Shown piece by piece: positions 8,187 to 29,888 of a stretch of 32,489 nucleotides of DNA (within the stretch, counting starts at the first letter, position 1; the number at the start of each line of letters is the position of its first letter). Under the pieces are notes generated by a model. The model did not search any database, had not been told where the DNA came from, and saw only the letters and a program-made list of their open reading frames with translations. Both the position numbers and the translations under genes were made by a program. Source of the stretch: an uncultured Clostridia bacterium (GTDB taxonomy: Bacteria > Bacillota > Clostridia > UBA1212 > UBA1255); NCBI GenBank assembly GCA_947625435.1, contig CANQOI010000027.1, forward strand, positions 1 to 32,489, given 5' to 3'.

Positions 8187-9518
8187 ATGGCTACTGTTAA
8201 AATATATGAGACCGACGGTGAGTGCGGCGATTTCACCGCGGTCGTGCTCTCATGCGTAAAATGCAGCGGTGGTTACGAGCTGGTGCTCGACAGAACGGCT
8301 TTTTTCCCGGAGGGAGGCGGCCAGCGCTCCGACAGCGGCACGATAGACGCTCAGCCCGTGCTTGACGTGCGCACAAACGACGAAAGGGACACTGTGCGGC
8401 ACATAGTGCCGTCTGAGTTTTTACCGGGCACGCGCGTAAGGGGATGCGTCGACATGGTGAAACGTTTCTCCGACATGCAGAACCATACTGCGGAGCACAT
8501 ACTGTCGGGGACGGTCTTTTCTCTTTACGGCATGAACAATGTGGGATTTCACATGGGCACGGACTGCATTACTGTCGATTTTGACGGCGCGCTGGACGCT
8601 TCAATGCTCGAGGCCGCCGAAAAGCGCGCAAATGATATCATTTATTCGGATGTTCCTGTCAAAATATCGATCTACAAGAGCGTAGGCGATGTGCCCGTAA
8701 GCTACAGGAGCAAGAAGGAGATAACGGGCGCCGACATACGCATTGTGGAGATACCCGGCGCCGACATATGCGCCTGCTGCGCGCCGCACGTTTCAAGCAC
8801 CGGTAAAATAGGTCTTGTCAAGATACTCGGCTTTCAGAAATACAAGGGCGGCACGAGGGTTGAAATGCTCGCGGGCTCCCGGGCATTTCACGAGCTTTCG
8901 AAACGCTTTGATCAGGTCAGGTGCGTTTCGGCGCGCCTTTCGTCCAAGCCCGATGATCTTGAGGCGCGCTTCACGCAGCTTATGAATGAACTTGCCGCTC
9001 TCAAGACCGACAACGCCGATATCTTTGCGGAATACGCCGCGCTCCGCGCGGAGCAGGTGCTGGGCAGGGCGCAGCCTGATCGCAGCCTGGCGCAGCAGGA
9101 TCGCAGCCTGGCGCAGCAGGATCGCAGCCTGGCGCAAGCTGCCTGCTGCGGCGTTCTGCTTTTTGAATGTATTGAAAACAACGGGAATTTTGTGCGGCCC
9201 TGCACCGCCGCCGAAATGCGCGTTCTTGTGAACGCGCTCAAGGACAAAACAAGCGGCGTGTGCGCAGTCTTTACCCCTTCTGCCTGTAAAGCAGAAGTTT
9301 CCGGCGCCGCAAACGATGCCATAGGAACATACAGATTTGTGATAGGCTCGCAGAGCGAGAGCTTGCTCGCGGAGGCCGCCGCCGCGCTGCGCGCACAATG
9401 CTCCGCGTCCTGCGGCGGCCGCGGCAACCTTATACAAGGCTCGGTTGCCGCCCCAAAAGAAGCGATCGCGGAAGCGCTTTCACGTTTTACAGGGGAAGTC
9501 ATTCCACAGTCAGTGTGA
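8187..9518 (+). CDS. Alanyl-tRNA editing protein, AlaX type with DHHA1-like C-terminus
   Basis: Trans-editing enzyme predicted to hydrolyse mischarged Ser-tRNA(Ala) or Gly-tRNA(Ala). It resembles the editing part of alanyl-tRNA synthetase without the catalytic core. The N-terminal domain has FFPEGGGQ (39-46). The zinc site is visible as H100 and H104 in NHTAEHILSG, with C197 and H201 in CACCAPH. The C-terminal half, ending in ASCGGRGNLIQGS, is DHHA1-like. Between them, at about residues 298-319, a seven-residue unit DRSLAQQ is repeated, encoded by a 21-bp DNA tandem repeat; this is unusual for the family. The ATG follows the AraC stop directly, with GGAGGA upstream. The 3' end overlaps the convergent esterase gene by 20 bp. 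Confidence 0.88.
   Translation: MATVKIYETDGECGDFTAVVLSCVKCSGGYELVLDRTAFFPEGGGQRSDSGTIDAQPVLDVRTNDERDTVRHIVPSEFLPGTRVRGCVDMVKRFSDMQNHTAEHILSGTVFSLYGMNNVGFHMGTDCITVDFDGALDASMLEAAEKRANDIIYSDVPVKISIYKSVGDVPVSYRSKKEITGADIRIVEIPGADICACCAPHVSSTGKIGLVKILGFQKYKGGTRVEMLAGSRAFHELSKRFDQVRCVSARLSSKPDDLEARFTQLMNELAALKTDNADIFAEYAALRAEQVLGRAQPDRSLAQQDRSLAQQDRSLAQAACCGVLLFECIENNGNFVRPCTAAEMRVLVNALKDKTSGVCAVFTPSACKAEVSGAANDAIGTYRFVIGSQSESLLAEAAAALRAQCSASCGGRGNLIQGSVAAPKEAIAEALSRFTGEVIPQSV
9078..9140 (+). repeat. 21-bp tandem repeat inside the alanyl-tRNA editing gene
   Basis: Two exact 21-bp units (9078-9098, 9099-9119) and a third that matches for its first 17 bases (9120-9140). The unit begins GATCGCAGCCTGGCGCAG. 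Being a multiple of three it keeps the frame and encodes DRSLAQQ units, so copy number can vary without loss of the protein. Confidence 0.9.
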
Positions 9519-13573: not shown

Positions 13574-13716
13574 ATAATACGTGTCAAACGCGCAAGACAA
13601 CTGTGATTGGAGCAGGCGTTCAGCACCACGGCGTTATCCACCTCAGACTGAGACATTGACTGCATAAAAGGCTTATGCCAATCCTTCATTTTTGTTTCTT
13701 CCGATTTCTTATCCAT
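13570..13716 (-). CDS. Candidate RiPP precursor peptide B (48 residues)
   Basis: Too short for routine gene calling, but well supported. The ATG at 13716 has GGAGGT 8 bases upstream, its start overlaps the stop of the preceding gene by 8 bp, and its TGA overlaps the next ATG. Residues 10-16 read MKDWHKP, the same M-K-x-W-x-K-P with identical spacing as peptide A, and WHKPFM fits the YxxPxL leader motif bound by PqqD-like domains. An acidic/polar stretch follows, then NACSNHSC with cysteines at 35 and 40, and an eight-residue tail LARLTRII. Leader and core boundaries are inferred. The alternative is a misread N-terminus of the AlbA gene, but the frame is different and no AlbA N-terminal signature is present. 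Confidence 0.7.
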   Translation of the reverse strand: MDKKSEETKMKDWHKPFMQSMSQSEVDNAVVLNACSNHSCLARLTRII

Positions 13717-15025
13717 TGAACTTACCTCCGTAGATTTCGAGAGTCTTAATGAGACTCATAAACATTTCCTTGTTGATCGCATATCTGGAGCCCTGCTCCT
13801 TAAGTATGAGCTTCTGTGCGGCAAACTTTTTGATGAGCCTGTACACGGTCGTTTTACTCAGTTTCAGAGTTTCCGTTATCTCATCCACCGTACATGGACG
13901 TTCACGCAGAACATTCAGAACATCCAGGGCTTCCGAGTATGCAAAATACTTAAACTTATCCCCAATTCTGTTCACATCGGAGCTGTCTTCAAAAAGGTCC
14001 CTATAGCCGTATCCTATACATATGACAAAATTATTGTATTTGCCGTAGTACTCGGCATGTCCGGAACAAAAAGCAAGCGGTTCGATCGACACGGTCTGTC
14101 GGCCCGCGCCGCCTGTAGCTATTCTTCTGAAAACATAATTATCTGTGATGCCATCCAGCTTATGTCTGCTCTTGATCTCGGATATCATGCTATTCCGTTC
14201 TTTTTCAAAGTAAGGCCGCATGGACTCAAACTGCCCTTTGTATACTTCAAAATACGACGTGAGAAATTTCACAAGTTCCTTCTTAAGAGTAGATTTCTTC
14301 GGGTCGGCTATCTGATATGTTTCATACATATTTATTATATCCTTCCTCATCGAATCTGAATATTCCGCTCCGTTCATAAAGTAGTAAAATTTCCCCATAT
14401 CCGAGCAAACATATTCTGCCACATTGTGCGTCACAAGTGAATTAATGCTCGCGCATGAAACGATATGTGCGAAAATATCGCGGTCCGTAAGTGTATTGAT
14501 CCTGTCAAAAACATCATGCTCCGTGATATTCTGCGCCGCTATGACGTCATACAGAATACACGATGTAAGAGCATGCGATTCCGTCACTTTTGTGAAAAGA
14601 AGTCTGAGCACACCCCAGCTGCTGTAAACATAATCCCTCAACCTGCAGGATGCCTTCTCCAGAGCAACCTCAAGTTCTGTGCTACACTTGCGCAGGAAGC
14701 CCGTTGTTTTTAAATCCGCCAAAAGGTTCAGAAACAGCAGTGCATCCCTCACTTCCGGCACGCATTTCTTCACATAGAGCTCGTATGTGTGTTCGCCTAT
14801 ACTGCCGGTGTACACATAATCACCGGCCGGCTCGCCATCCGCTGCGGCGTCATTTACCCCGGGAGTGCCGATATTCTCCTCATTCTCAATATCAGCAGCA
14901 ATCGGCACAAACAAATCGTCCGAATCCAATCCATTTACAACCGAATTCAAACTGCTTTTGTGAAACGCCACGCCGTCATCTACATAACCAATGTTCTTAT
15001 CTTTTGTAAACTTCAGAATGTCCAT
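13709..15025 (-). CDS. ArsR-type winged-helix protein with large N-terminal domain (paralogue 2)
   Basis: A 438-residue protein with an unrecognised N-terminal part of about 330 residues and a C-terminal winged helix (ALDVLNVLRERPCTVDEITETLKLSKTTVYRLIKKF, shown here only in part: TVDEITETLKLSKTTVYRL). It shares layout and weak sequence pattern with the proteins at 15242-16057 and 17544-18656. The start is uncertain: AGGGAGG at 15037-15043 is only 2 bases from an ATG at 15034 and 11 from the one at 15025. It lies between the two small peptide genes and overlaps the start of peptide B by 8 bp. It may sense the peptide or control its operon. That is inference from position. Confidence 0.7.
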   Translation of the reverse strand: MDILKFTKDKNIGYVDDGVAFHKSSLNSVVNGLDSDDLFVPIAADIENEENIGTPGVNDAAADGEPAGDYVYTGSIGEHTYELYVKKCVPEVRDALLFLNLLADLKTTGFLRKCSTELEVALEKASCRLRDYVYSSWGVLRLLFTKVTESHALTSCILYDVIAAQNITEHDVFDRINTLTDRDIFAHIVSCASINSLVTHNVAEYVCSDMGKFYYFMNGAEYSDSMRKDIINMYETYQIADPKKSTLKKELVKFLTSYFEVYKGQFESMRPYFEKERNSMISEIKSRHKLDGITDNYVFRRIATGGAGRQTVSIEPLAFCSGHAEYYGKYNNFVICIGYGYRDLFEDSSDVNRIGDKFKYFAYSEALDVLNVLRERPCTVDEITETLKLSKTTVYRLIKKFAAQKLILKEQGSRYAINKEMFMSLIKTLEIYGGKFNG

Positions 15026-15093
15026 AATTGACATTGCCTCCCTTTCCGTAAAATCATTCCGGTGAAATCTCCGATATCCCACCCTGCCGTCAG

Positions 15094-15207
15094 TTAATAT
15101 CCCTCCTGACATATGTCCACAAAGCTCGAGCAGCCCGCGGCGGTTATTATGTCCTCAAGCTCGTCCCTGCCGATGTGCTCTATTTCCGGCTTCTTCCATT
15201 TCTTCAT
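15094..15207 (-). CDS. Candidate RiPP precursor peptide A (37 residues)
   Basis: A tiny gene with an ideal ribosome binding site, GGGAGG 8 bases before the ATG at 15207; an ATG at 15213 in the same frame is only 2 bases away from it. The product starts MKKWKKPEI, so W4-x-x-P7-x-I9 corresponds to the YxxPxL motif of RiPP leaders recognised by PqqD-like domains. A charged helix (RDELEDIITAA) then leads into GCSSFVDIC near the C-terminus, with cysteines at 26 and 33, followed by QEGY. It sits between two ArsR-protein genes in one operon, with a radical SAM/SPASM gene and a PqqD-like gene upstream. No known precursor family is recognised. The expected modification is a thioether at the cysteines, which is inference. 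Confidence 0.75.
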   Translation of the reverse strand: MKKWKKPEIEHIGRDELEDIITAAGCSSFVDICQEGY

Positions 15208-15241
15208 GCTCATATCCTCCCTTCATATATATTTATATATA

Positions 15242-16057
15242 TCAAAAAGGCGCGGAGGCCCCTCCGTTCAGCTCCTTCTGAATTTTGTACAGCCCGTCCG
15301 CGCATATCACCGTCTCATCCTCGCTATACACCCTATTATGTGTAAAGCATACCATTTCCGGCACATATATGTACTTTCTTCGCATATCTCCGAGCTCCGC
15401 CCTTGTATATTCGAAAATAAAAGGCAGCTCCTCACACGATCTGAGATGATCTCTCAGTATCCTGTAATAATAAATGTAAGCCTCGCCGTGCAAATCGTAC
15501 AAAGCCGAAACGGCGTCATATATTCTGGTAAAATATTTCACGAGCATGTCTCTGAACATGTCAAAATCAGTGAACATGAACGAAAGACCGAATTTTGCAT
15601 CGGGAGAGATATCCATAGAATTAAGATATTTCACGGGATCCAGCGCTGTCTCAAATATAAAGCTGTCTATGTCGGCGGCGTGCTCCGGAATATACGGCCT
15701 TATGAAATACATGAGTATCTCCGTTCTTATGCCGTCCATGTCTCCCGACTGTATGTAGCTTCTGAATTCGTCAAATGAATGAAGGCGGAATGCTCTGCTC
15801 CTGAAAACGAGCATCATGACTGTATAATTATAAATATTGTCAACGATATCCGGTATGTGGAAGAGAGGTGAAAGGGCATTGTCATATATGAGTGCGTTCT
15901 TGTATATAGATCTTATATCACTGCGTGACCCGGGCTTAAGCAGGCTAAGTTCTTCGTCCAGCATACTGTCTGCGTAAGGCTTGTGCGCCCTGTCCGTCAC
16001 ATTGAGCACGTCGAACAGTATGCTTCTTCGAATACTTGCAATAGCCCATGAAACCAT
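15242..16057 (-). CDS. Paralogue of the ArsR-type proteins lacking the winged helix (paralogue 1)
   Basis: A 271-residue protein of unknown function. A middle segment around YLNSMDISPDAKFGL and MLVKYFTRIYDAVSALY resembles the N-terminal domains of the proteins at 13709-15025 and 17544-18656, but it ends (GLYKIQKELNGGASAPF) just where the others enter their DNA-binding winged helix. It is the first gene of the peptide operon, downstream of a good promoter. GGGAGG lies 13 bases before the ATG, a rather long spacing. A short GC-rich inverted repeat (15253-15266) followed by five U residues overlaps its stop and could attenuate transcription into peptide A. Without a DNA-binding domain it may be a dominant-negative partner, a peptide receptor or an immunity protein; none is proven. 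Confidence 0.65.
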   Translation of the reverse strand: MVSWAIASIRRSILFDVLNVTDRAHKPYADSMLDEELSLLKPGSRSDIRSIYKNALIYDNALSPLFHIPDIVDNIYNYTVMMLVFRSRAFRLHSFDEFRSYIQSGDMDGIRTEILMYFIRPYIPEHAADIDSFIFETALDPVKYLNSMDISPDAKFGLSFMFTDFDMFRDMLVKYFTRIYDAVSALYDLHGEAYIYYYRILRDHLRSCEELPFIFEYTRAELGDMRRKYIYVPEMVCFTHNRVYSEDETVICADGLYKIQKELNGGASAPF

Positions 16058-16101: not shown

Positions 16102-16130
16102 ATATTATCACAACAAAACGCACGAATCAA
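16102..16130 (-). promoter_or_regulatory. Promoter of the peptide operon
   Basis: On the minus strand TTGATT (16130-16125), a 17-bp spacer and TAATAT (16107-16102), 44 bp before the ATG at 16057. It gives the peptide block its own start separate from the enzyme block upstream. Confidence 0.55.
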
Positions 16131-16504: not shown

Positions 16505-17554
16505 CTAATTTTGACATAACTTGCATTCGTTTTTTATAAGCCTCATCGTACTCTGCCTCCTGAATTCGCATTCCCCGTCGCTTCCCGGCATATCGGAGCA
16601 TACAACATCAGCAATCGCGGGGCACCCGCGCCCGCACTTGTTGTGGAGCATACATTTTCCGCACCCGTATATGCCGCCGGCACTTTCCGAAAGGCGCCTC
16701 TCAAGGCGGGCGGAAAGCGCCGATATTTTACGTTCAATATCCTGCCAGTCGATATCGTGTATATTGCCCACGCTGTATCTGTCGTCGTAAAAGTTCTGAC
16801 ACGGCTGAAAAGACCCGCCGGACTTTATGCACGGCGTATAAACGGGCTCCGGCGGCATGAGGCCGCATATAGACGTGGGGAGCGGTATCGTAAGACCTTT
16901 TATTCCGTACTCGCGGTACATGTCGCGCACCTTAACAACGATCTTAGCCCTGTCAGCGACAGGCAGCTCCATTTCACCCCAGTTGGCGGCGGCATTCCCG
17001 TAGGGCACCGCGAAAGCGAACGCGGGACGGCCTCCCAACACGTCGTGCACAAAGCGGCCGTATTCTGAAACGTATTCCGCATTTTTTCTGTTTATGACCA
17101 TTTTGTACACAGGCTTGTTATAAAAGCGCCTCCCGCGCATATTGCTCATGACGCGTTCAAAATTGCCTTCGCCGCGCATGCTCGAATTCGCCGTCTCATT
17201 GGGCCCGTCCAGGCTCACCTGTACAAAGAAATGAGGATCGCGCTCCGCGAGCTCATAGAAAAGGGCGTTGTCCACAGTGCCGTTCGTAATAAAATTCACG
17301 GTCATATCCTTTTCCGAGCACAGGCGGGACAGGGCCCTCAATATATCATTTATCTCAGTGTGCAGGAGCGGCTCCCCGCCCGAAATGCTCACCGAATTTA
17401 CGTTGTACCTTTCTTCCGTATCGCGAATGAAACCCATCAGTACGTCTGCCTCAAGCTCTGTGCGGTGAGTGTTCAGACCCGATGAATTATAGCAGTCACG
17501 GCAGTTCAGATTGCACTTATTTGTTATCTCGATGTACGCACTCTTAAGCTTCAT
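16505..17554 (-). CDS. Radical SAM/SPASM peptide maturase-like enzyme
   Basis: A 349-residue radical SAM enzyme. CNLNCRDC (C14, C18, C21) is the CxxxCxxC motif that binds the catalytic 4Fe-4S cluster, and SISGGEPLLH is the SAM-binding GGEP segment. The C-terminus is a SPASM domain for auxiliary clusters: the exact CX2CX5CX3C pattern is at C298, C301, C307, C311, with further cysteines at 242, 252, 319 and 329. SPASM enzymes commonly modify ribosomal peptides, for example by making thioether (sactipeptide or ranthipeptide) links. It overlaps the ArsR-type gene by 11 bp and is the last gene of the enzyme block. The candidate substrates are peptides A and B. Anaerobic sulfatase-maturase or PqqE-like roles are alternatives. 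Confidence 0.87.
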   Translation of the reverse strand: MKLKSAYIEITNKCNLNCRDCYNSSGLNTHRTELEADVLMGFIRDTEERYNVNSVSISGGEPLLHTEINDILRALSRLCSEKDMTVNFITNGTVDNALFYELAERDPHFFVQVSLDGPNETANSSMRGEGNFERVMSNMRGRRFYNKPVYKMVINRKNAEYVSEYGRFVHDVLGGRPAFAFAVPYGNAAANWGEMELPVADRAKIVVKVRDMYREYGIKGLTIPLPTSICGLMPPEPVYTPCIKSGGSFQPCQNFYDDRYSVGNIHDIDWQDIERKISALSARLERRLSESAGGIYGCGKCMLHNKCGRGCPAIADVVCSDMPGSDGECEFRRQSTMRLIKNECKLCQN

Positions 17555-18656
17555 CGTCCTCTACAAATCTGCGCAGCATGTTCGACGCATATATAAACTG
17601 CTTTTTATTTATTCTGTAATACGTTCTCTTGCCTTCTATCCTCTTCAGAACGAATCCCGAATTGCCGAGTATCTCCATATGGTGAGTGAGGGACGACATG
17701 GGAACGCCCAATATCTTACTGAGCTCGCCGTTATAGCATTCCTTATCGTGAAGCACTTCTATTATCTGAGCGCGCGTGCTGTCCGTGAAGGCCTTGAATA
17801 TATCCCTTATCTTTTCTGTCCCGTCTGTCGCAGAATTTTCCTCGAACGCGGGCATATATCCCACGCCGAAGGTGTAATACGTGCTCCTCATCGTGTCTAT
17901 GCGCAGGATGCGGCACGGCGTGAACATGAGTACGGCCACTCTCGCCTCGCTCGTGGGAGGCGCGGACTGCTGCACTGATATCTGTGTGATGGCATTATTC
18001 CTCTTGCGCTCCGTCTCGTAGGCTTCCGCCGCGCTGTCCACCGTACCGTCAACTATATAATTCTCAAATTCCTCCTTAAGTGCGTCGTATTCCTCCTTAA
18101 GGAGCCCGTATTCGTGTGAAAATTCCCTGTACATGTTCACGATATACGTCTTAAGGTCCGATATCACATCGTCCGGGTTCTGCACAAATGACATTATCTC
18201 CCAGCGCGCGTCAGTGGTCGCGTTAAGGCCGTTCATGTAGCTCATGAACACGCTCCTGTTTTCTATTATATCCTCGTAAAATTTATCGTTGAAATTATTG
18301 TAAAGGTCGTTGAAACGCAGTGCGCCGTACATGAGCTTGCGCGCAGGCATATTCTCTATCGCCTTTACTATGTCTTCTCCCGAAGCGTACGTCTCGAGAT
18401 CCGGCCTGAAAAGCCAGTCGAAAAGGTTCATGTTCCTTTCCGGCTTTTTGACAAAGAACATACCGAGTCCCGAATTCCACCTCTTGTTTGCCAGCGACAG
18501 CCTGTAATATGCATCCGATATCTTCTCGTCCGGCGTGAAACCCTCGTTCGGGCATATGTCCTTGTACTTATCGGCCTCCTGCAGCGTACTCAGCAATGAG
18601 AAAAATTCGATCATCATATCGTTACGTTCTTCTAAAACATATACACACTTTGACAT
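17544..18656 (-). CDS. ArsR-type winged-helix protein with large N-terminal domain (paralogue 3)
   Basis: A 370-residue protein with about 280 residues of unrecognised N-terminal sequence and a clear ArsR-like winged helix at the C-terminus (FKAFTDSTRAQIIEVL, then GVPMSSLTHHMEIL and a YYRINKKQF wing). Its N-terminal MNGLNATTDARWEI and DLKTYIVNMYREF stretches echo the two paralogues in the neighbouring operon. The ATG at 18656 is chosen because AAGGAG lies 9 bases upstream, whereas the longer frame to 18698 has no site. It overlaps the radical SAM gene by 11 bp. A regulator of the peptide and enzyme operons is the natural guess. A ligand could be the mature peptide. Confidence 0.75.
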   Translation of the reverse strand: MSKCVYVLEERNDMMIEFFSLLSTLQEADKYKDICPNEGFTPDEKISDAYYRLSLANKRWNSGLGMFFVKKPERNMNLFDWLFRPDLETYASGEDIVKAIENMPARKLMYGALRFNDLYNNFNDKFYEDIIENRSVFMSYMNGLNATTDARWEIMSFVQNPDDVISDLKTYIVNMYREFSHEYGLLKEEYDALKEEFENYIVDGTVDSAAEAYETERKRNNAITQISVQQSAPPTSEARVAVLMFTPCRILRIDTMRSTYYTFGVGYMPAFEENSATDGTEKIRDIFKAFTDSTRAQIIEVLHDKECYNGELSKILGVPMSSLTHHMEILGNSGFVLKRIEGKRTYYRINKKQFIYASNMLRRFVEDDEA

Positions 18657-18715
18657 ACCGACAACTCCTTTATACATATTTTTTAGTACTCTATACATAG
18701 CTCTGTACCGTCATT

Positions 18716-20860
18716 CTAATATGTTTTCGAATTCAAGTCAAATACTATTTTCAAATTTTCGTCCTCATCATACGTGATTCTGTATACAGTTGACATTTCG
18801 CCGTTTTGAATGGCGAACAGTCTCCCCGAGATATACATATATTCATATTTTTTTATATGATCTTTTTCGGCAGTTTTGAACGATACCTTATATTCCGCTC
18901 CGCCGTTTTGCCCAAGCCGTATATTGTCCGTCTTTTCATGCATTTCGAGCCTGAGCCCCGTTTTATTTTCGCCCGAGCGTATTATGCCGCATATCATCCT
19001 TATGCGCTTCTCCCACGGAAGCTCGTCGTCTATATAAAGCGTTCCGGCGCGCACCGTGTTGTCATACGGCCTGCAATAAATGAGCAGGACCTCCGTGCAC
19101 CAGTCGCCGCGGCACCTGTACTTACGCCCGTTCATTCTGCGCAGGGTTATCATGAATTCATTCGATCCCGGCACGCTCACGCGCCCCGAAACCTCAACCT
19201 CCGTGCCCGTAAATCTCATTTCGGTGCTGCCGCATCCGCATTTGCATGCGAGCGTTTCCCCGCGCCTCAGTTCCTTATATTTCCCCGCTTGAAATTCCGC
19301 CTGTTTTACGCGCCACCTTCGCGACATATAATATGCGTCTCTCAGCTTTATGAGCGCGGCTCCGTTCATTTTCATTTTAAAAGGGCTCATAAGGCACGAC
19401 CTTACGTCTATGGGAAGCTCATACATCTTTTCGCATATGTCCTCTCTTTTCTTTATCATGTCGCGGAGATCCTCTATGCCTCCGAGAAAAGGGGCGGGAG
19501 CGAATATTTTACACGTGTAGTCGAGCGCGAGATACAGATAGAAGCTTATGTCGTACCGGTACGCCAGCTCTGAAATGTATTCTTTTGAAATTCCCGAAAG
19601 CTCCCGCGAGAGCAGCGCTATGTCGAGGTAATTCCTGAATTTGAGCTGCAAAAATATATTCGGATCTTCTTCATATGTCATATTCGCGCACCCGAAGTCA
19701 TCCGCGGCCGTCGTATACAGCTGGCACACGTATATATCGGCATCCGACATGGCGTAGAATTCATAGCCGTCCGCGTTCATCATGCGTCTTCTCGAAAGTA
19801 TCTCGTCCGTGTGATCTTCCGTTATGTAGAGTGCGGTGTGAAGCTCGCACGTGACGCTCGGGGCGCTCAGTGCCGTATACGGAGTAAGGTGCGTGGGATA
19901 TTCTGTGAGCGGTATTTCTTCCGTGTGGAGTCCCTGCGCGTCCTTCTGTGCAAATCCCAGCTCCAGCATTATACTGTGCGCCCTTTGTATGCTGCCGGGA
20001 TGTACGAGTATATCTATGTCGTCGCACTCTCTTAAAATATCGTTCTTATATGCTATGTGCGATATCGTGATCCCCTTGTATACGGCATATATTATGTTTT
20101 CCTTTTCAAAGGCGGCCGTTATCCTGCGGCTCCATTCCAGGCGCTGCCTTGCCGCCGCCAGATTGCGCGCCTTTGCGAGCTTGAACATTTTGTTGAATCT
20201 TCCGCACGCCTCCGAAAACATAGGCGATATGACATTCACCACTCTGTGATTTACGAGCATAGAGTAGAAGTCCCTCGTATACACAAAGCTCTCGTCGGGC
20301 GGCTGTATATCGCCCGTCACGTACTCCTTCGCCTTCTGCACCATATAATCCTGTGCTTTATAAACATATTCTTTGATGTCGTCGGGAGCCATGTCATATA
20401 TCTGTACATTACAGCTGCTGCTGTAGGCCGCATTCGGGTCCTGCGTGTCTGTGTAGATCTTGTTCACTTTTCGTGAATACTCCACTATTTTCATGTCGTG
20501 CTCCGAGGGCTCCCCGAATTTAAGCTGCTTTCCCCATTTGTTGAAAGCCTCCGTGACCTTCCCTATGCAGAATGCCTTTTCTATCAGCTCCGAAGCTACC
20601 GCATTATCGCCCTTTGTAACGTACACGGTCTCACCGTTTTCATCCTTCTCGGTGTCTATTATGCGGTGCACCAGCAGTCTCGCTTTACTGTCTATGCATA
20701 TGACTATGTCCCCTATGCTGTAGCCGTCTCTTATATCGAGGCGCACATTGTCGCCCGCCACAAGAAGAGGTATCATGCTGTAGCCTCCCACGGGCAGTAT
20801 GCCGCCCGAGCGTTTCAGCTTCATGAGAGTAAGTGTCTTAAGTAAGCTTCTGCTGTCCAT
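18716..20860 (-). CDS. S26-type peptidase / nucleotidyltransferase fusion with unknown C-terminal domain
   Basis: A 714-residue three-part protein. Residues 1-110 resemble S24/S26 signal-peptidase-like proteases: LPVGGYSMIPLL (Ser28), HRI (His65) and TKGDN (Asp85), the Ser-His-Asp set of the SipW/ER type, with no membrane helix. Residues about 190-500 match the NTP_transf_5 nucleotidyltransferases, with YKGITISHIAY and ECDDIDILVHP as the KG and DxD parts. The last 180 or so residues are beta-rich with a CKCGCG cysteine cluster and are unrecognised. Stand-alone relatives of the second domain occur in lasso peptide clusters. The protease could trim the leader, which is inference. The start at 20860 overlaps the kinase-like gene by 40 bp; an ATG at 20824 (ATGA overlap) is possible. 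Confidence 0.78.
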   Translation of the reverse strand: MDSRSLLKTLTLMKLKRSGGILPVGGYSMIPLLVAGDNVRLDIRDGYSIGDIVICIDSKARLLVHRIIDTEKDENGETVYVTKGDNAVASELIEKAFCIGKVTEAFNKWGKQLKFGEPSEHDMKIVEYSRKVNKIYTDTQDPNAAYSSSCNVQIYDMAPDDIKEYVYKAQDYMVQKAKEYVTGDIQPPDESFVYTRDFYSMLVNHRVVNVISPMFSEACGRFNKMFKLAKARNLAAARQRLEWSRRITAAFEKENIIYAVYKGITISHIAYKNDILRECDDIDILVHPGSIQRAHSIMLELGFAQKDAQGLHTEEIPLTEYPTHLTPYTALSAPSVTCELHTALYITEDHTDEILSRRRMMNADGYEFYAMSDADIYVCQLYTTAADDFGCANMTYEEDPNIFLQLKFRNYLDIALLSRELSGISKEYISELAYRYDISFYLYLALDYTCKIFAPAPFLGGIEDLRDMIKKREDICEKMYELPIDVRSCLMSPFKMKMNGAALIKLRDAYYMSRRWRVKQAEFQAGKYKELRRGETLACKCGCGSTEMRFTGTEVEVSGRVSVPGSNEFMITLRRMNGRKYRCRGDWCTEVLLIYCRPYDNTVRAGTLYIDDELPWEKRIRMICGIIRSGENKTGLRLEMHEKTDNIRLGQNGGAEYKVSFKTAEKDHIKKYEYMYISGRLFAIQNGEMSTVYRITYDEDENLKIVFDLNSKTY

Positions 20861-21750
20861 AGATCCGAATACTCCGTTTCATAAGTTTTCTCCGCTATAT
20901 GTGAAATGACCCTATAATATTCCATTATGCTCTCCGTTTCCCCGCATGCGTTTGCATCTGCTCCTCGCGCGGGAGTGAGCCTGCTCTTTATGAGCCGCGT
21001 GAAAGCGTCTCTTGTGCCGAGTCTGCGCAGATAGGGATCGTCGCTTCCGTATCCGTTTATAAAAACGGCGGCCGCCGTTTCGTACGTGCAGTCGTCCGTA
21101 CCCGTGACCTGATCCGCTTTTTCTTTTATGAGATACCTTTCGCATGCGCCGGAAAGCACACGCTCGGAACCGTTCAGGGCATTTTCCCCAAGCGTATCAC
21201 GGAGCACACGGGCGCCTCCCTCCCTCAGTAAAATGTCCTTATCTGCCGTCAATACACGCATATCCCGGCTTGAAATGTATATTTCATCGTCGGTGATCAG
21301 GTCGTACCCGCGCATATACATGAATGCGGCAAGCGTAGATTTGCCCGAATGCGTGGGCGCGAGCATGAGCACGGCTCTTCCGTTTTTCGCGACCGCCGCT
21401 CCGTGAAGCGATATAAGCCCTTCCTTAGGCTCGGCGGTAAGATACATGTGATTCTCCGTTATCTGTAAAATCTCCGCTGCGCTTCCTTCTTTAAGCTCGC
21501 AGCTCCGCACTGTCTTTTTCCGCGTATTTTCTTCTGCGGCGAAGCAGCACTGCACCGTGCCTGTCCCTTTAATGTAACGCACATACGGTATGCTTCCGGA
21601 TCCCGGTACCGATCCCGGTTCCGATTCCGGCTCCGACTCTGTCTGCTCGCACTTGTATACCGCGCCGTATGCCTCCAGCAGCGCGGCATCGTCCGATATG
21701 AGTGCGAAGTCATATTTCTGTCTTATGCGCCTATACAGCAGTGCTTTCAT
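20821..21750 (-). CDS. HPr-kinase-like P-loop ATPase of a peptide cluster
   Basis: A 309-residue protein with one P-loop, LAPTHSGKST (about 130-139), followed by LITDDEIYI (DD at 154-155), the core of the HPr kinase C-terminal-like family. Related proteins in lasso peptide clusters (PadeK type) phosphorylate a residue of the precursor; they are not the carbohydrate regulator HPrK. A low-complexity Ser/Glu/Pro/Gly stretch lies at residues 37-53. The start overlaps the PqqD-like gene by 20 bp, and the stop overlaps the peptidase/nucleotidyltransferase gene. Whether it modifies peptides A and B is unknown. Peptide A has serines at 27-28 and a C-terminal tyrosine as possible sites. Confidence 0.78.
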   Translation of the reverse strand: MKALLYRRIRQKYDFALISDDAALLEAYGAVYKCEQTESEPESEPGSVPGSGSIPYVRYIKGTGTVQCCFAAEENTRKKTVRSCELKEGSAAEILQITENHMYLTAEPKEGLISLHGAAVAKNGRAVLMLAPTHSGKSTLAAFMYMRGYDLITDDEIYISSRDMRVLTADKDILLREGGARVLRDTLGENALNGSERVLSGACERYLIKEKADQVTGTDDCTYETAAAVFINGYGSDDPYLRRLGTRDAFTRLIKSRLTPARGADANACGETESIMEYYRVISHIAEKTYETEYSDLWTAEAYLRHLLS

Positions 21751-22015
21751 TTTTTAAGAGTATATTGTTTGCCTCGGCTTCTCTGACAAAAGCAGCTACG
21801 TCCTTCTCGACCGTTTCTCTTTCCGCATCATACACTTCAAGAAGCCTGTTTATAACATCCTCAACTGTCATAGGTGTCCTGAACAGATTTATTATGTCAA
21901 GCGATATATCATCAAGTATATGAGTGTTTTCCGTTTCGGGATCATAGAGTACCGTGCCTTCGCCTTCTCCCAGAGGCATTTCCTGCATTTTTGTGTTAAA
22001 TATGTATTTATCCAT
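21731..22015 (-). CDS. PqqD-like RiPP recognition element protein
   Basis: A 94-residue protein of the PqqD family, a small winged-helix-like domain that binds leader peptides and presents them to modifying enzymes. The features seen are the DPETENTHILDDISLDIINLF segment (typical PqqD 'N-x-T-x-x-L-x..A-x-x-I' pattern, here with LDDISLDII) and the VEDVINRLLEVYDAE helix. It is the first gene of the enzyme block, with a moderate AGGAAAGAGAG site before the ATG. The leader motif WxxPx(I/M) in peptides A and B is what this domain would be expected to bind. No separate strong promoter was found in the short gap after the surface-protein terminator, so readthrough may drive the block. Confidence 0.85.
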   Translation of the reverse strand: MDKYIFNTKMQEMPLGEGEGTVLYDPETENTHILDDISLDIINLFRTPMTVEDVINRLLEVYDAERETVEKDVAAFVREAEANNILLKNESTAV

Positions 22016-22160: not shown

Positions 22161-25100
22161 TCACGATTCTGTTCTTTTTTTGTAGTATACAGCTACTACA
22201 GCTACAGCTGCTGCAAGAAGAACTGCAGCTGCTATCCACATTCCTACGTCACCTGTGGACGGATTACCCGGATTGCTCGGATTATCAGGATTGCTCGGAT
22301 TATCCGGTTTGTTCGGATCATCAGGCTGAGTAGGCTCACCCTCTGAAGGAAGCTTTGTGCCGGCCTTTGTCCTTGTATCCGTTGTTCCGCAGTTATGGTC
22401 GCATACGGCAGTCTCTGTTCCGTCGTTTTCTGTCGTTGCGTCATTGTTGTACACGTAGTTCGTGAATGAATGTCCGAGTGCAGGTATCTCTTCGGTATAC
22501 GTCTCATTGCATCTTGTGCACTTGAATGTCTTTGTTCCTGCTTCCGTACATGTTGCATCCTTTGTTACAGTGCCGTTGTCCCAGCTGTGTCCGAGTGCGT
22601 CAACGCTCTTTGTCTGCTTATGATCAGCATCATTGCCGCATACTCTCTCATCTGTTCCCGCTTCTGTACATGTAGGATCCTTTATGCGTTTCCACTCGCC
22701 CCATGCATGGTCCTTTGCGGGTATCGACTCTTTCTTTGTAGCTTTACATATGTCGCATGTGTATGTTATCTCGCCTGCTTCCTCACATGTAGCTGCCTTT
22801 GTCTCTACTCCGCCGTTCCACTCGTGAGCTCCGTAATAGGTTCTTCCGCAAACAGAGCATGTATGCTTATGCTCGTTATCGTCAGAATTCTCCCAAGGTC
22901 CGAAGTTGTGGTCGCACTCAATGTCTTTAATTCTCACATAGCCGTTATTTGCAGCTATATCATCTGTTATAACAGTGAATGCTCCGGTTTCGTTGTTGTA
23001 ACTCTGTACCTCTTTGATTGTTATGGTTATATCCGTATCGCCTATGGCTCTCGTATCATCAACGATCTTGAATGTAAGCTTCGTGAGAACGCCGCTCTCA
23101 GTACGGTTCTGTATAGCTGCCCATGTGTGCGGGTACGGATACTGCTTGATCGTCTGTCCGAGTGTCAGTGCTCCGAGGAGTCCCATATCTTCACATTTAA
23201 CAAGCTCGAGCTTGCTCTGATCCCAGTTGATTCTGAGGTTGAAGCCGCTCATTCCGGGGTTATTGAGAAGTGATATCTCTACTACCACTTCGGAACCGAT
23301 CGTGCCCTCTGTCGAGCTCACTTTAAACTGAGGCTCTTCGGGTCCCACCAGCTTCTTTATTTCAAATGGTACTTTCTCAGCGCCTGCAACAGGAGTATAT
23401 CCGTCGTTTGCAAGTATTATCGCATAGTACTTTCCGGGCTTGAGAGCTCCGTTTGCGTCGATCTCTCCGCTTCTTTCGGGATTGGTCTTTATGTTATCCT
23501 TGTCTGCGGGGATAGTTACGCTCGTATGATCCTTGAGATACCACCAATAGATGGACTTAGCTCTGCCGTTGTTCGGATCGGTCTCTTCGCCTTCTTTATA
23601 GATTCCTACCCAGTCGGCGTCACCGAACTTACCTGTAGCTGTAACAGTTACGTTATTTTCTCTGTCAACAGTTACGTTTAATTCAGGCTTTGCCGGCTCC
23701 TCGGGCTCCTCGGAAGCGTTATCATATGTGTCGCCCGCATCTTCGTATGTGGATGCCGTGCCTACTGTGAGCTTGGCAACCCAGAACAGCTCGTGCGTGC
23801 CGTCTTCGAATTCCGCATAAAGTCTCACTATCTGTGTTCCGTCGGTAACCGGTACGGGGATATCAAATCTCTGTCCGTATTCAGCGTTAAAGGTCTTTGC
23901 AGCAGCAACAACTCTGTCTTCGGTAGCTGTCATCCAAGCATCGGATGTGACCACCTTTCCTCCGCCTACGGAGTACGAGAACTTAACTACCTTAAGATCG
24001 GTCGCTACCCAGCCGCGGAATGTAACACTCTGATATCCTGCCGCAACTGTAGGAGTTTCTTGATTTTCCTTCTTCCCGCCTACGAGAATACCGCTTTCGT
24101 TATTGGGTCTTACTTCATCATAGCTTGTGTGGATCACATATTCTTCAGGCAGTGTGAAATCTACCTCAGGTCCCATCTGAGGTTCGGGAAGCTTTGTGAA
24201 TTTAATATTGTCGATAGCCATAGATTCAGCACGAGCACCAAATGCAAAAGATGACTGCGTGGAGATGAGAGCGTTCTGAACAGTCTCGAGAACTTCTCCG
24301 TTGGCGTCAGTTATCTTGGCATCAAGATAATATCTTTCATTGAACTTTAAACTCGGCGACATACCGGGATTGCTGTAAAGAACCTTCGCAAATGCAACGC
24401 CGTCACAGTAGAATGTAATCGTTCCATTATTGTCGTCGGTAAGTCTCCAAGTGTGAGTTACACCCGACACATAAAGTCCCGAGAACTCGTGGCCGATAGC
24501 CTGGAGCTGGCCGTCTGCGCCTACTGCCTTAACAAATATTTCTATCCTGTCCCCCGGTCTGAAAGAGAAGCCCACGCCGCTTTCTCCGGTCGTACTGTTC
24601 TGACTGTCAGGACGTACTGTATCATTTTCGTAATACGGATTTCTGTACTCTCCGCCAAATCTGTAACCGAAACCGAGGAAATTTGCACCGCTGCTTCCGT
24701 TTGTAAGATCAACAGAAATATCACTCGTGCCCTTCCATCTGTTATCATATTTAAGTTCAAGAAAAGCACCGGTCGCATATGCGTACTTATTGCCCGCCGC
24801 TGCATTTACTTCAAACGTTCCACCCGCTAACAGAGGAGTCCATTTCTGTCTGAACGGATTCGTTACCTGGCCGTCCGTCTTATACGGAGTGTTCAGGTTA
24901 AAACCTTCTTCTTCATTACTGAAATCATATGAATATTCGTCAATGGAATCCTTAGCGTTCGGAACCTTTTCTTCTCTTTCCGGAAGCGGAATTGATTCGA
25001 GTGTATACTCCTTTACATATTCCGCATCGTATTCGTTAACGTCGGCTGCCGACTTAAAGAATCCGATATACGCTATGCGGAACTCACCGGCAGGAACAGG

Positions 25101-25556
25101 AAACCGTATGGACTTTATTGTCTCACTTGCTACCAAAGGAGATTCCGTCGGAATATCATATGTCTCAAGATGCCATTCATTATCATGAACATAATTTGGT
25201 TGATCAATATAGCGTCCAGTTGTCGGCACAAAACCCGATACATTGGTACCTATATAAATATGAGCGCCGCCGGCATCTACATTCACTTCAGAACCTGCAT
25301 ATTTGATTGCCAAAGTGCCGTATGTTGTCGGACTGACATCATCAACATCGATACTTATCCATGTATCTCCGCCAGTGGCCGTTATGACTGCGTACGAGCC
25401 GTCTTCGGCATAATCTGCTGTCGAATCATTGCAATGAATGTCAGCTTCGCCCATTTTATACACGTGAGTGTCGTCAACTGCGGCGAATGCGGCAAATCCG
25501 GCAAAGCTCGTTACGATCATAGCAAAGACAACTAACAATGAAACGTACCTTTTCAT
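22161..25556 (-). CDS. Large sortase-type surface protein with cohesin-like domain
   Basis: A 1131-residue exported, wall-anchored protein. It has a signal peptide (MKRYVSLLVVFAMIV start, cut near AFA-AV), beta-rich carbohydrate-binding-like modules in the first 600 residues, and an Ig-like module at about 630-735 (DWVGIYKEG...LKPGKYY). A cohesin-like module follows at about 739-875 (VSSTEGTIGSEVVVEIS, LLNNPGMSGFNLRINWD). Next come about 150 residues of CxxC-bearing repeats (CSVCG, CDICK, CTRCN), a Pro/Asn/Asp-rich spacer and an NPSTG anchor with a hydrophobic helix and KKR tail. Cohesins bind dockerins in cellulosome-like assemblies. No dockerin is seen in the window. A GGAGG site and a TTGACT/TATAAT promoter lie upstream. 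Its ends are nearly identical to those of the protein at 27891-29888. Confidence 0.85.
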   Translation of the reverse strand: MKRYVSLLVVFAMIVTSFAGFAAFAAVDDTHVYKMGEADIHCNDSTADYAEDGSYAVITATGGDTWISIDVDDVSPTTYGTLAIKYAGSEVNVDAGGAHIYIGTNVSGFVPTTGRYIDQPNYVHDNEWHLETYDIPTESPLVASETIKSIRFPVPAGEFRIAYIGFFKSAADVNEYDAEYVKEYTLESIPLPEREEKVPNAKDSIDEYSYDFSNEEEGFNLNTPYKTDGQVTNPFRQKWTPLLAGGTFEVNAAAGNKYAYATGAFLELKYDNRWKGTSDISVDLTNGSSGANFLGFGYRFGGEYRNPYYENDTVRPDSQNSTTGESGVGFSFRPGDRIEIFVKAVGADGQLQAIGHEFSGLYVSGVTHTWRLTDDNNGTITFYCDGVAFAKVLYSNPGMSPSLKFNERYYLDAKITDANGEVLETVQNALISTQSSFAFGARAESMAIDNIKFTKLPEPQMGPEVDFTLPEEYVIHTSYDEVRPNNESGILVGGKKENQETPTVAAGYQSVTFRGWVATDLKVVKFSYSVGGGKVVTSDAWMTATEDRVVAAAKTFNAEYGQRFDIPVPVTDGTQIVRLYAEFEDGTHELFWVAKLTVGTASTYEDAGDTYDNASEEPEEPAKPELNVTVDRENNVTVTATGKFGDADWVGIYKEGEETDPNNGRAKSIYWWYLKDHTSVTIPADKDNIKTNPERSGEIDANGALKPGKYYAIILANDGYTPVAGAEKVPFEIKKLVGPEEPQFKVSSTEGTIGSEVVVEISLLNNPGMSGFNLRINWDQSKLELVKCEDMGLLGALTLGQTIKQYPYPHTWAAIQNRTESGVLTKLTFKIVDDTRAIGDTDITITIKEVQSYNNETGAFTVITDDIAANNGYVRIKDIECDHNFGPWENSDDNEHKHTCSVCGRTYYGAHEWNGGVETKAATCEEAGEITYTCDICKATKKESIPAKDHAWGEWKRIKDPTCTEAGTDERVCGNDADHKQTKSVDALGHSWDNGTVTKDATCTEAGTKTFKCTRCNETYTEEIPALGHSFTNYVYNNDATTENDGTETAVCDHNCGTTDTRTKAGTKLPSEGEPTQPDDPNKPDNPSNPDNPSNPGNPSTGDVGMWIAAAVLLAAAVAVVAVYYKKRTES

Positions 25557-27890: not shown

Positions 27891-29888
27891 TTACGCTTCT
27901 GTTCTTTTCTTGTAATAAACAACCGCCAATGCCGCAGCTGCCGTGAGAAGTACTATGGCTGCCATCCATATTCCCATATCGCCTGTTGCGGGATTTTCGG
28001 GAGTGGTCGGATTATCGGGATTGCTCGGATTGTCGGGGTTGCTCGGCTCATCGGGCTCTGTAGGCTCTCCTTCCGCGGGAAGCTTTGTGCCGGCCTTTGT
28101 CCTTGTGTCCGTTGTTCCGCAGTTGTGATCGCACACGGCAGTCTCTGTTCCGTCGTTTTCTGTCGTTGCGTCATTGTTGTATACATAATTCGTGAAGGAA
28201 TGTCCGAGCGCCGCAACTTCTCTTGTCTCCTTGTGCTCAGGATCATTGCCGCATACTCTTTCATCTGTTCCCGCTTCCGTACATGTAGGATCCTTTGTAC
28301 GTTCCCATTCGCCCCATGCGTGGTTCTTTGCGGGTATCGTTTCGGTCTTGGTAGCATTACATGTCTCGCATGTGTATGTCTTCTCGCCGGCAGTATCGCA
28401 TGTAGCTGCCTTTGTCTCTGTGCCGCCGTTCCAATTGTGCGCTTCATAATACGTATTTCCGCATTTAGTGCATGTGTGCTGATGGCGGTTGTCGTCTGTC
28501 TTCTCCCAAGGTCCGAAGCTGTGATCGCATTCAACCGGTGCGGATTCTTTTGCTATGAACTTAATGCCTACTATGAGTATCTGCTGTCCGGCAGGATTCA
28601 GCGATGACAGCCATACCATGCCCTTATAATCTTTATCCGTAAGGTCTATGGTAGTAGTCCTTTCAACCTTATCCCAGTTTGCTCCGTCCGGATTCGTGAT
28701 CTCGGCATCAGTGATGTCGCCCTGCGCGATTATGTGCTCTGTGTTTCTGAACGTCTCGTTATATCCTACGTCGAGCGCATCGTCCATAAGTGCAAAAAGC
28801 GCTCCGGTGGGCATATCGTTATTCTTAGCTGTGAAGCCTTTATCGGTAGCATATGTTATCTCCGCAGCCTTGAATCCCGACAGGTCGAAAAGTCCCAGCT
28901 GAGCAAGGCTGTTGTTTGCGAACATTACCGATACAAGATCGGGATAGCCGTGAGGCGCGTAGCTCTGCGAAGCTCCCGCAATAGACGAAAGATCCACCGT
29001 GAAATCTCCGTTTGCTCCGTTCTCATAGTCATATGCGAGCACTTCAAACTTAACGGGCTCGCACTGCGGATCGTAATAGTCGTTACCGCCGAGTATTACC
29101 AGGAAGTATTTGCCGGCCTTAAGGGTATCAATGCCCTTGTTATATGTGATACAGCCCATGTCTCCCGGCTTGTCGCCCGTAACGGGGAGTCTCAGATTGT
29201 CGGGATCGAGTCCATCGGGATCATTGAACACCACATAGCCGGAGCCGTCTATATACGCATACTGCTCGGAAGGATTATCGGAGCCGTAAACCGGATCTCC
29301 GCCGTTATCCTTATATACGGCAAGCCAGTCGTTATTGGATGCCGCGGCATTGTTATATGCGACCTTTATAGCCTCGCCCTCGTAAAATCTGTCCTTGGCG
29401 AGCGTTATCTGCTTTGTCACGTCAGATACGAATACCGCAAGGAGCGTCTTGCTGCCGTCGGGCTGCTTTGCGTATATCCTGAGAGTCTGCGAAGCGCCGT
29501 TGTAAGAAGCCGCAAATGTCTCCGTGATGAACATAGAGAAGCGCGTGTGATATGTGGCTCCCTTTATCTGACCGTTTATGGCGTCCACCACACCGCTCTC
29601 CGCCGGCGTAAGAGTTATATTATTGTCCGGGCCGTCGTCTATGGTAAATACCATAGTGGTTTCCGCTTCAAATATGCCTCCGAACCATCCTCTGAGCTCG
29701 ATAGGCTGACCCTCATGGTACAGGAAGCTTACCGTCTGCACCTTATTTGCAAGCGCGTTAACCTTGCTTCCCGTCGGCGAATTGTCAAAATTTATTATAA
29801 AATCGCCGTTTTCGGCAGATGCCGCAAAGCCTGCAAAAGATGTTATGACCATTGCGAGTACTATGAGCAATGAAACATATCTCTTCAT
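27891..29888 (-). CDS. Sortase-type surface protein, paralogue of the cohesin-domain protein
   Basis: A 665-residue exported, wall-anchored protein. The signal peptide begins MKRYVSLLIVLAMVITSF. A DWLAVYK...LKAGKYFLVILGGNDYY Ig-like module and a carbohydrate-binding-like module (about 285-450) follow. Next come CxxC-bearing repeats (CTKCG, CETCN), a Pro/Asn/Asp-rich spacer, an NPATG anchor, a hydrophobic helix and a KKR tail. The signal peptide and the last 110 or so residues nearly match the protein at 22161-25556, while the middle differs and has no cohesin-like module. GGAGGT precedes the ATG, and a TTGACT/TAGAAT promoter lies just upstream. The two genes look like products of duplication with domain exchange. 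Likely roles are glycan binding or adhesion at the cell surface. Confidence 0.83.
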   Translation of the reverse strand: MKRYVSLLIVLAMVITSFAGFAASAENGDFIINFDNSPTGSKVNALANKVQTVSFLYHEGQPIELRGWFGGIFEAETTMVFTIDDGPDNNITLTPAESGVVDAINGQIKGATYHTRFSMFITETFAASYNGASQTLRIYAKQPDGSKTLLAVFVSDVTKQITLAKDRFYEGEAIKVAYNNAAASNNDWLAVYKDNGGDPVYGSDNPSEQYAYIDGSGYVVFNDPDGLDPDNLRLPVTGDKPGDMGCITYNKGIDTLKAGKYFLVILGGNDYYDPQCEPVKFEVLAYDYENGANGDFTVDLSSIAGASQSYAPHGYPDLVSVMFANNSLAQLGLFDLSGFKAAEITYATDKGFTAKNNDMPTGALFALMDDALDVGYNETFRNTEHIIAQGDITDAEITNPDGANWDKVERTTTIDLTDKDYKGMVWLSSLNPAGQQILIVGIKFIAKESAPVECDHSFGPWEKTDDNRHQHTCTKCGNTYYEAHNWNGGTETKAATCDTAGEKTYTCETCNATKTETIPAKNHAWGEWERTKDPTCTEAGTDERVCGNDPEHKETREVAALGHSFTNYVYNNDATTENDGTETAVCDHNCGTTDTRTKAGTKLPAEGEPTEPDEPSNPDNPSNPDNPTTPENPATGDMGIWMAAIVLLTAAAALAVVYYKKRTEA

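Follow-up and report, generated by a model that had tools for sequence, protein, structure and literature searches.

Peptide A, encoded within the window (the whole stretch of 32,489 nucleotides that was analysed), is very likely an RRE-guided RiPP precursor, judging from its leader, its core and the genes around it. Its relatives share an unusual arrangement: nearly every precursor gene lies directly behind a gene of one regulator family, a near-obligatory pairing that the initial annotation of this DNA had missed. Our preferred reading, to which we give somewhat better than even chances, is that these genes encode private RiPP peptide–receptor pairs and constitute a new RRE-dependent RiPP family. 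The window holds two such pairs, R271 with peptide A and R467 with peptide B, together with a set of candidate maturation genes (Table 1).

Table 1. Features of the window, with positions counted from its first letter
Feature	Position	Strand	Details
Peptide A precursor, 37 aa	15094..15207	minus	MKKWKKPEIEHIGRDELEDIITAAGCSSFVDICQEGY; ATG 15207, stop 15094
Ribosome-binding site of peptide A	15216..15221	minus	GGGAGG, 8 nt from ATG 15207
Predicted leader of peptide A	15207-15133	minus	residues 1-25
Predicted core of peptide A	15132-15097	minus	CSSFVDICQEGY, 12 residues
Peptide B precursor, 48 aa	13570..13716	minus	MDKKSEETKMKDWHKPFMQSMSQSEVDNAVVLNACSNHSCLARLTRII; ATG overlaps the R467 stop
R467	13709..15034	minus	lies between peptides A and B; regulator family, winged helix at the C terminus
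R271	15242..16057	minus	regulator-family member without winged helix, directly upstream of peptide A
Candidate promoter upstream of R271	16102..16130	minus	TTGATT-N17-TAATAT; same TTGATT-N17-TAATAT at that place in G003
Radical SAM/SPASM enzyme	16505..17554	minus	PF04055, 65.3 bits
R384	17544..18698	minus	full-length regulator: N-domain and ArsR-type winged helix, no peptide after it
S26/SipW-like peptidase domain fused to NTP_transf_5 nucleotidyltransferase domain	18716..20860	minus	PF14907, 87.6 bits
HprK-like kinase	20821..21750	minus	GKST P-loop plus a DD motif; scores with PF07475 and TIGR04352 below their cut-offs
PqqD-like protein, candidate leader-binding RRE	21731..22015	minus	PF05402, 50.9 bits (cut-off 23.4)

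Peptide A is a conserved gene

The initial annotation had described a 37-residue frame with an ideal ribosome-binding site, a W4-x-x-P7-x-I9 motif in its leader and a C-terminal GCSSFVDIC, and we found each of these as described. An in-frame alternative start, ATG 15213, would extend the peptide by two residues (MS). Because a frame of 37 codons proves nothing alone, the weight rests on its orthologs and on their codon pattern. A six-frame scan of 146 genomes recovered orthologs in three other species of the genus (G003, G002 and G004; E 1e-11 to 2.5e-8; 46-62% identity) and more distant relatives from the same class in G041, G057 and G123. Codon differences between orthologs fall mostly in third positions, with 3, 7 and 16 differences at positions 1, 2 and 3 in one example. 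The pN/pS ratio was approximately 0.2-0.4 for peptide A and 0.1-0.3 for peptide B, values that are indicative only, since synonymous sites are near-saturated in most comparisons. For both peptides the leader is kept better than the core in ortholog comparisons (for peptide A, 17/25 versus 6/12 and 15/25 versus 3/12 residues). Rfam matched nothing within the window, and a tblastn search of plasmids with peptide A gave no match.

These patterns of conservation support the view that peptide A is a genuinely conserved, translated gene of a gut bacterium. Its short length is what would speak for a chance open reading frame, but that explanation has a negligible probability given that the frame is kept in four species of the genus at a low pN/pS, follows an ideal ribosome-binding site and belongs to a family found across Clostridia. 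Loss of the frame in relatives was one outcome that the initial annotation had said would count against it; the frame proved instead to be conserved under purifying selection.

The precursor family

Peptide B is a second precursor of the peptide A family in the window, with its own ribosome-binding site and with orthologs in the same three species (G002, G003 and G004). We collected further precursors by profile searches and by examining the loci that surround related radical SAM genes. Across 26 aligned precursors, the leader W and P (W4 and P7 in peptide A) are invariant. The residue at position -1 to the predicted core is A in 22 precursors and G in 4, and at position -3 it is A in 16, L in 4, I in 3 and S, T or V in one each. 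Core position 2 is S in 24 and T in 2, and all 26 have a downstream Cys at core position 5 to 10. Standing outside this count are L194/L195, a tandem pair whose alignment is ambiguous at the core start, and the second tandem copy of L191. Predicted cores are 11-18 residues long, with one outlier of 25. Separately, we observed that the genome G411 carries two tandem precursor pairs (L191/L193 and L194/L195), their members approximately 135-145 nt apart, behind single regulator genes.

A ring-sized cysteine pair had been proposed for the C terminus of peptide A. The second Cys is kept throughout the family, but the first, at core position 1, is C in only 16 of the 26 precursors; the others have W, Y, R, K or S there. 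The pair is thus not supported as a defining ring; what relatives keep instead is Ser or Thr at core position 2 together with the second Cys. The proposal that peptide A is a precursor of RiPP type whose leader carries an RRE-type motif fared better: besides the invariant W and P and the purifying selection, there is a PqqD-like protein in the gene set, as there also is in G001-G004, G016 and G041, and a short precursor with a conserved leader, a more variable core and an RRE encoded in the same gene set is the organization that characterizes RRE-dependent RiPPs.

The family is uncommon, with a member in 7 of 391 drawn Clostridia genomes (E 0.001). A phylum-wide search returned two weak matches, G421 and G718, neither of which lies beside a regulator-family gene by eye. 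Among Pfam and NCBIfam models we found none that describes the scanned precursors or the N-domains of the regulators.

Precursor genes are paired with regulator genes

Of 29 precursors with genomic context, 28 lie 3' of a gene of one regulator family and on the same strand, a count that includes loci fetched through their radical SAM gene (L066-L073), some of whose regulators were subsequently included in the profile. The gaps are mostly -8 to +41 nt. They reach +132 and +150 nt for second tandem copies, and -86 nt for the precursor on the organism's own contig C13, whose start falls inside the regulator frame. The one exception, G057, has the reverse order, with the precursor before a regulator that is broken by a stop or frameshift. 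The independent part of the pairing evidence consists of L071 and L072: a profile of the first 12 precursors alone picked both (E 7.6e-6 and 1.6e-8, respectively) among approximately 31,000 frames, and both lie directly behind regulator-family genes. Our literature search, which covered open-licence papers, found no description of this one-to-one pairing with regulator-family genes.

Distances among regulators and distances among precursors are correlated (Mantel r 0.65, 1 in 2001 permutations; 22 of 2304 with within-genome relabelling). Such co-divergence is also expected from linked inheritance and from the separate ortholog groups of A and B, and it is therefore weak evidence for recognition. 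Regulator homologs without an adjacent precursor exist as well (f56/g75, G193, G096, G136 and G318), so the N-domain need not bind peptides. Precursor-less homologs at L148, L149, L151 and L153 each lie directly behind a gene whose product has a KNFCEKD..IKELLLSKI-like tail, a context that possibly reflects another sensing role of the N-domain. Contig C20 of the organism (L161) carries, as a contig-end fragment, a truncated regulator that is a paralog of the one on C13; by eye, the three frames behind it contain no precursor-like frame.

The three regulator-family proteins of the window differ in architecture. R384, compared with peptide-paired regulators of other genomes, gave a strong profile–profile match. 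Its winged helix is of the ArsR type (PF01022, 34.7 bits versus a cut-off of 22; NF033788, 60.5 versus 55), and the corresponding C-terminal part of its predicted model aligned with 2oqg_C (VIA Z 14.8 over 94 residues, rmsd 1.6). The model of R384 has a mean pLDDT of 84.5, and that of the N-domain alone a pLDDT of 89.4 and a pTM of 0.88. The PDB yielded no significant match to the N-domain model (best Foldseek E 0.086; best VIA Z 3.4, rmsd 4.5, 122 residues aligned). The modelled N-domain is thus one for which no PDB match was detected, which does not in itself make its fold new. Nuclear-receptor ligand-binding domains head the VIA list (Z 3.4 or less), and we took this to reflect a common helical arrangement. 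R467 also matched the family closely (hhalign 98%, E 7.5e-14) and scored above the MarR_2 cut-off (29.1 bits versus 27). Its open frame from ATG 15112 encodes 467 residues, with 15034 or 15025 as the likelier start.

R271 gave a weaker match to peptide-paired regulators of other genomes than R384 and R467 did (90% probability, E 1.9e-6, 179 columns). It ends before the winged helix, and peptide A follows it in all four species of the genus in which it was found; in the window, the gap is 28 nt to ATG 15213 and 34 nt to ATG 15207. The strongest argument that the peptide goes with the N-domain, and not with DNA binding, is that R271 has kept peptide A although it has no winged helix. A search for an operator shared by the regions upstream of R271 and the PqqD-like gene found inverted repeats that differ between species and no 12-mer common to three regions.

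A candidate maturation gene set

The gene set of the window comprises the PqqD-like protein, the HprK-like kinase, the fusion of S26-like and NTP_transf_5 domains, R384 and the radical SAM/SPASM enzyme. The PqqD-like gene lies 6.5 kb upstream of peptide A on the same strand, where the initial annotation had placed it. All 12 kinase homologs retain the P-loop and DD motif, and all 13 S26-like domains retain the Ser of the SMxP motif and the His of the HR motif; the S26 domain of the window scores 38.1 bits with TIGR02228, below the curated cut-off of that family. In view of its fusion to PqqD in L066 and L069, the S26-like domain may well be the leader peptidase. The radical SAM enzyme has the CxxxCxxC motif (C14-x3-C18-x2-C21) and a SPASM pattern of the CX2CX5CX3CX(n)C type (C298-x2-C301-x5-C307-x3-C311-x17-C329). 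Within the best 25 models, no named radical SAM maturase (mycofactocin, ranthipeptide PapB, SynChlorMet and others) exceeded its equivalog cut-off, and a scan of viral contigs with the radical SAM protein found no match.

One maturation set serves several precursor–regulator pairs, sometimes from another contig. In G411, three regulator genes are accompanied by precursors, against a single radical SAM match. In G018 and G406 the precursor and the radical SAM gene are on different contigs, which makes maturation in trans likely, and maturation genes are present elsewhere in both genomes. G123 (86% complete) and G057 (72% complete) contain precursors, and no radical SAM homolog was detected in either. 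We found no exporter in the gene set of the window; an extracellular signal would need one.

Related sets vary in their neighbours. On contig C13 (L019 8503-17574), a second set of the same organism combines a regulator and its overlapping precursor with HprK-like, S26-PqqD, radical SAM and NTP_transf_5 genes, and also includes two divergent ABC exporters. FkbH-domain and phosphopantetheine-binding proteins are encoded beside the sets at L069 (9666-10898) and L072 (9258-10907), which hints at acyl or glyceryl modification of the product. Elsewhere in the window, two large proteins of surface type that resemble each other in signal region and C-terminal part are encoded upstream of the set (22161-25556 and 27891-29888), the former with a Cohesin match, and the product of 8187-9518 resembles an alanyl-tRNA editing (AlaX-type) protein and contains a short in-frame triple repeat, DRSLAQQ.

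Proposed mechanism

In our preferred reading, the W-x-x-P leader would be bound by the PqqD-like protein, as the motif and the gene linkage suggest; that an RRE binds the leader of peptide A is, we believe, highly probable. The S26/SipW-like Ser–His peptidase would cut after the small residue that precedes (C/W/Y/R/K/S)-(S/T) and release the core. Type I signal peptidases follow a -3/-1 rule for the residues of their substrates. The sequence at the predicted cut site agrees with this rule, and the A-x-A-like site before the core is consistent with an S26-type cut there, which we regard as plausible and reasonably probable. By analogy with paeninodin and pseudomycoidin, the HprK-like kinase would phosphorylate the invariant Ser/Thr at core position 2, a plausible step that we lean towards slightly, and the NTP_transf_5 domain may decorate the resulting phosphate. 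The target of the radical SAM/SPASM enzyme would be the conserved second Cys or a site close to it, and the enzyme possibly joins this Cys to a further residue. We infer these chemical steps from conserved motifs and from analogy. In a further variant, phosphorylation, elimination and Cys addition could join the core Ser/Thr to the Cys in a lanthionine-like link formed without a known Lan enzyme.

The most speculative step is the last. The mature peptide would bind the N-domain of the regulator encoded directly upstream, R271 for peptide A and R467 for peptide B, and R467 and R384, through their winged helices, would make transcription depend on the level of the peptide. R271, lacking a winged helix, would sequester the peptide or pair with paralogs. 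Given the gene pairing, whether the peptide is the ligand of its paired protein is, to us, an evenly balanced question. Only tentatively do we propose the full scheme, in which a private RiPP modified by a radical SAM enzyme and a kinase, a receptor with a previously undescribed N-domain and an ArsR-type winged helix, and a soluble, RRE-guided, signal-peptidase-like leader peptidase would together make up a new mode of peptide signalling.

If this is true, RiPP chemistry would be linked directly to intracellular peptide reception, and, as the receptor gene precedes each precursor gene, ligand and receptor could be cloned as a ready pair. It would also provide testable assignments for three poorly understood proteins (the HprK-like kinase, NTP_transf_5 and the soluble S26-like peptidase) and for a regulator N-domain to which our searches could relate no solved structure.

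Alternative explanations

Signalling stands about even with an ordinary alternative, a regulated secreted product. In its specific form, this alternative makes the peptide an antimicrobial RiPP or another natural product that is secreted, while the regulator autoregulates the operon and senses something else. Two ABC exporters beside the related sets on contig C13 and in L066 fit such a role, as do the regulator homologs without precursors, but it leaves unexplained why precursors that share one maturation set come each with a regulator-family gene of their own, why R271 keeps its peptide without a winged helix and why the main gene set of the genus is without an exporter. We consider this form somewhat unlikely. 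Tight coupling to the regulator would equally be expected of an unmodified small partner protein, an anti-repressor or co-repressor, with the RiPP enzymes acting on something else; pairs far from the radical SAM gene in G018 and G406, and in genomes where none was detected (G123 and G057), point the same way. Such a partner is nonetheless improbable: the invariant W-x-x-P leader, the conserved cut-like site and a core that varies except for its S/T and Cys are what one expects of a RiPP precursor, and G018 and G406 have their maturation genes elsewhere.

The initial annotation had compared the leader with the YxxPxL motif bound by lasso B1/PqqD-like domains, and the similarity of the motifs favours a lasso peptide, as does the occurrence of PqqD, HPr-kinase and nucleotidyltransferase genes alongside lasso clusters (PMC8498205, PMC7533575). 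Among the proteins encoded from PqqD to peptide B, none matched a B2 transglutaminase-like protease or C cyclase family, and the first core residue varies among W, R, K, Y, S and C, so that a lasso precursor is very improbable.

Comparison with known systems

By its architecture, peptide A is a RiPP precursor and not a lasso precursor, and the products of its neighbouring genes do not reach the cut-offs set for the named radical SAM and HPr-rel-A models. Lasso peptides offer a precedent, in which a core Ser is phosphorylated by a homolog of HPr kinase and glycosylated by a nucleotidyltransferase (PMC8498205). The window resembles such kinase/nucleotidyltransferase clusters (paeninodin, pseudomycoidin) in its aromatic-x-x-P leader, PqqD-type B1/RRE, HPr-kinase homolog and nucleotidyltransferase. 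Unlike them, it has no B2 or C match and encodes a radical SAM/SPASM enzyme and an S26-like peptidase instead; the conserved Ser of its family is at core position 2, not C-terminal, and the precursor follows a regulator-family gene. The streptococcal RaS-RiPPs under Rgg/SHP control are likewise radical SAM-modified RiPPs of Bacillota tied to peptide-responsive regulation; there, signal (SHP) and RiPP are separate peptides and Rgg is the receptor (PMC13361665, PMC8092268), whereas on our preferred reading the modified peptide would itself be paired with an ArsR-type winged-helix regulator that has another N-domain.

Mycofactocin and ranthipeptide maturases (TIGR03962, NF047865) similarly pair a radical SAM/SPASM enzyme with a short precursor, and the window enzyme scores below both cut-offs (85.9 versus 265 and 70.9 versus 340, respectively). 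The HPr-rel-A systems (TIGR04352, TIGR04353) share with the window an HprK-related kinase and a PqqD-like chaperone. The window proteins score under their cut-offs (TIGR04352, 47.0 versus 200; TIGR04353, 25.0 versus 35), and the S26-PqqD fusions of L066 and L069 pass TIGR04353 (42.4 and 37.2 versus 35); unlike HPr-rel-A, the window set adds a radical SAM enzyme, a regulator and a precursor. In RRNPP signalling (Rap-Phr, PlcR-PapR, Rgg-SHP), whose receptors bind peptides through a TPR-type domain, a small peptide gene lies beside a regulator gene. The window has the same adjacency, but its regulator combines an N-domain for which no significant PDB match was found with a winged helix of the ArsR type, and its precursor carries an RRE-type leader.
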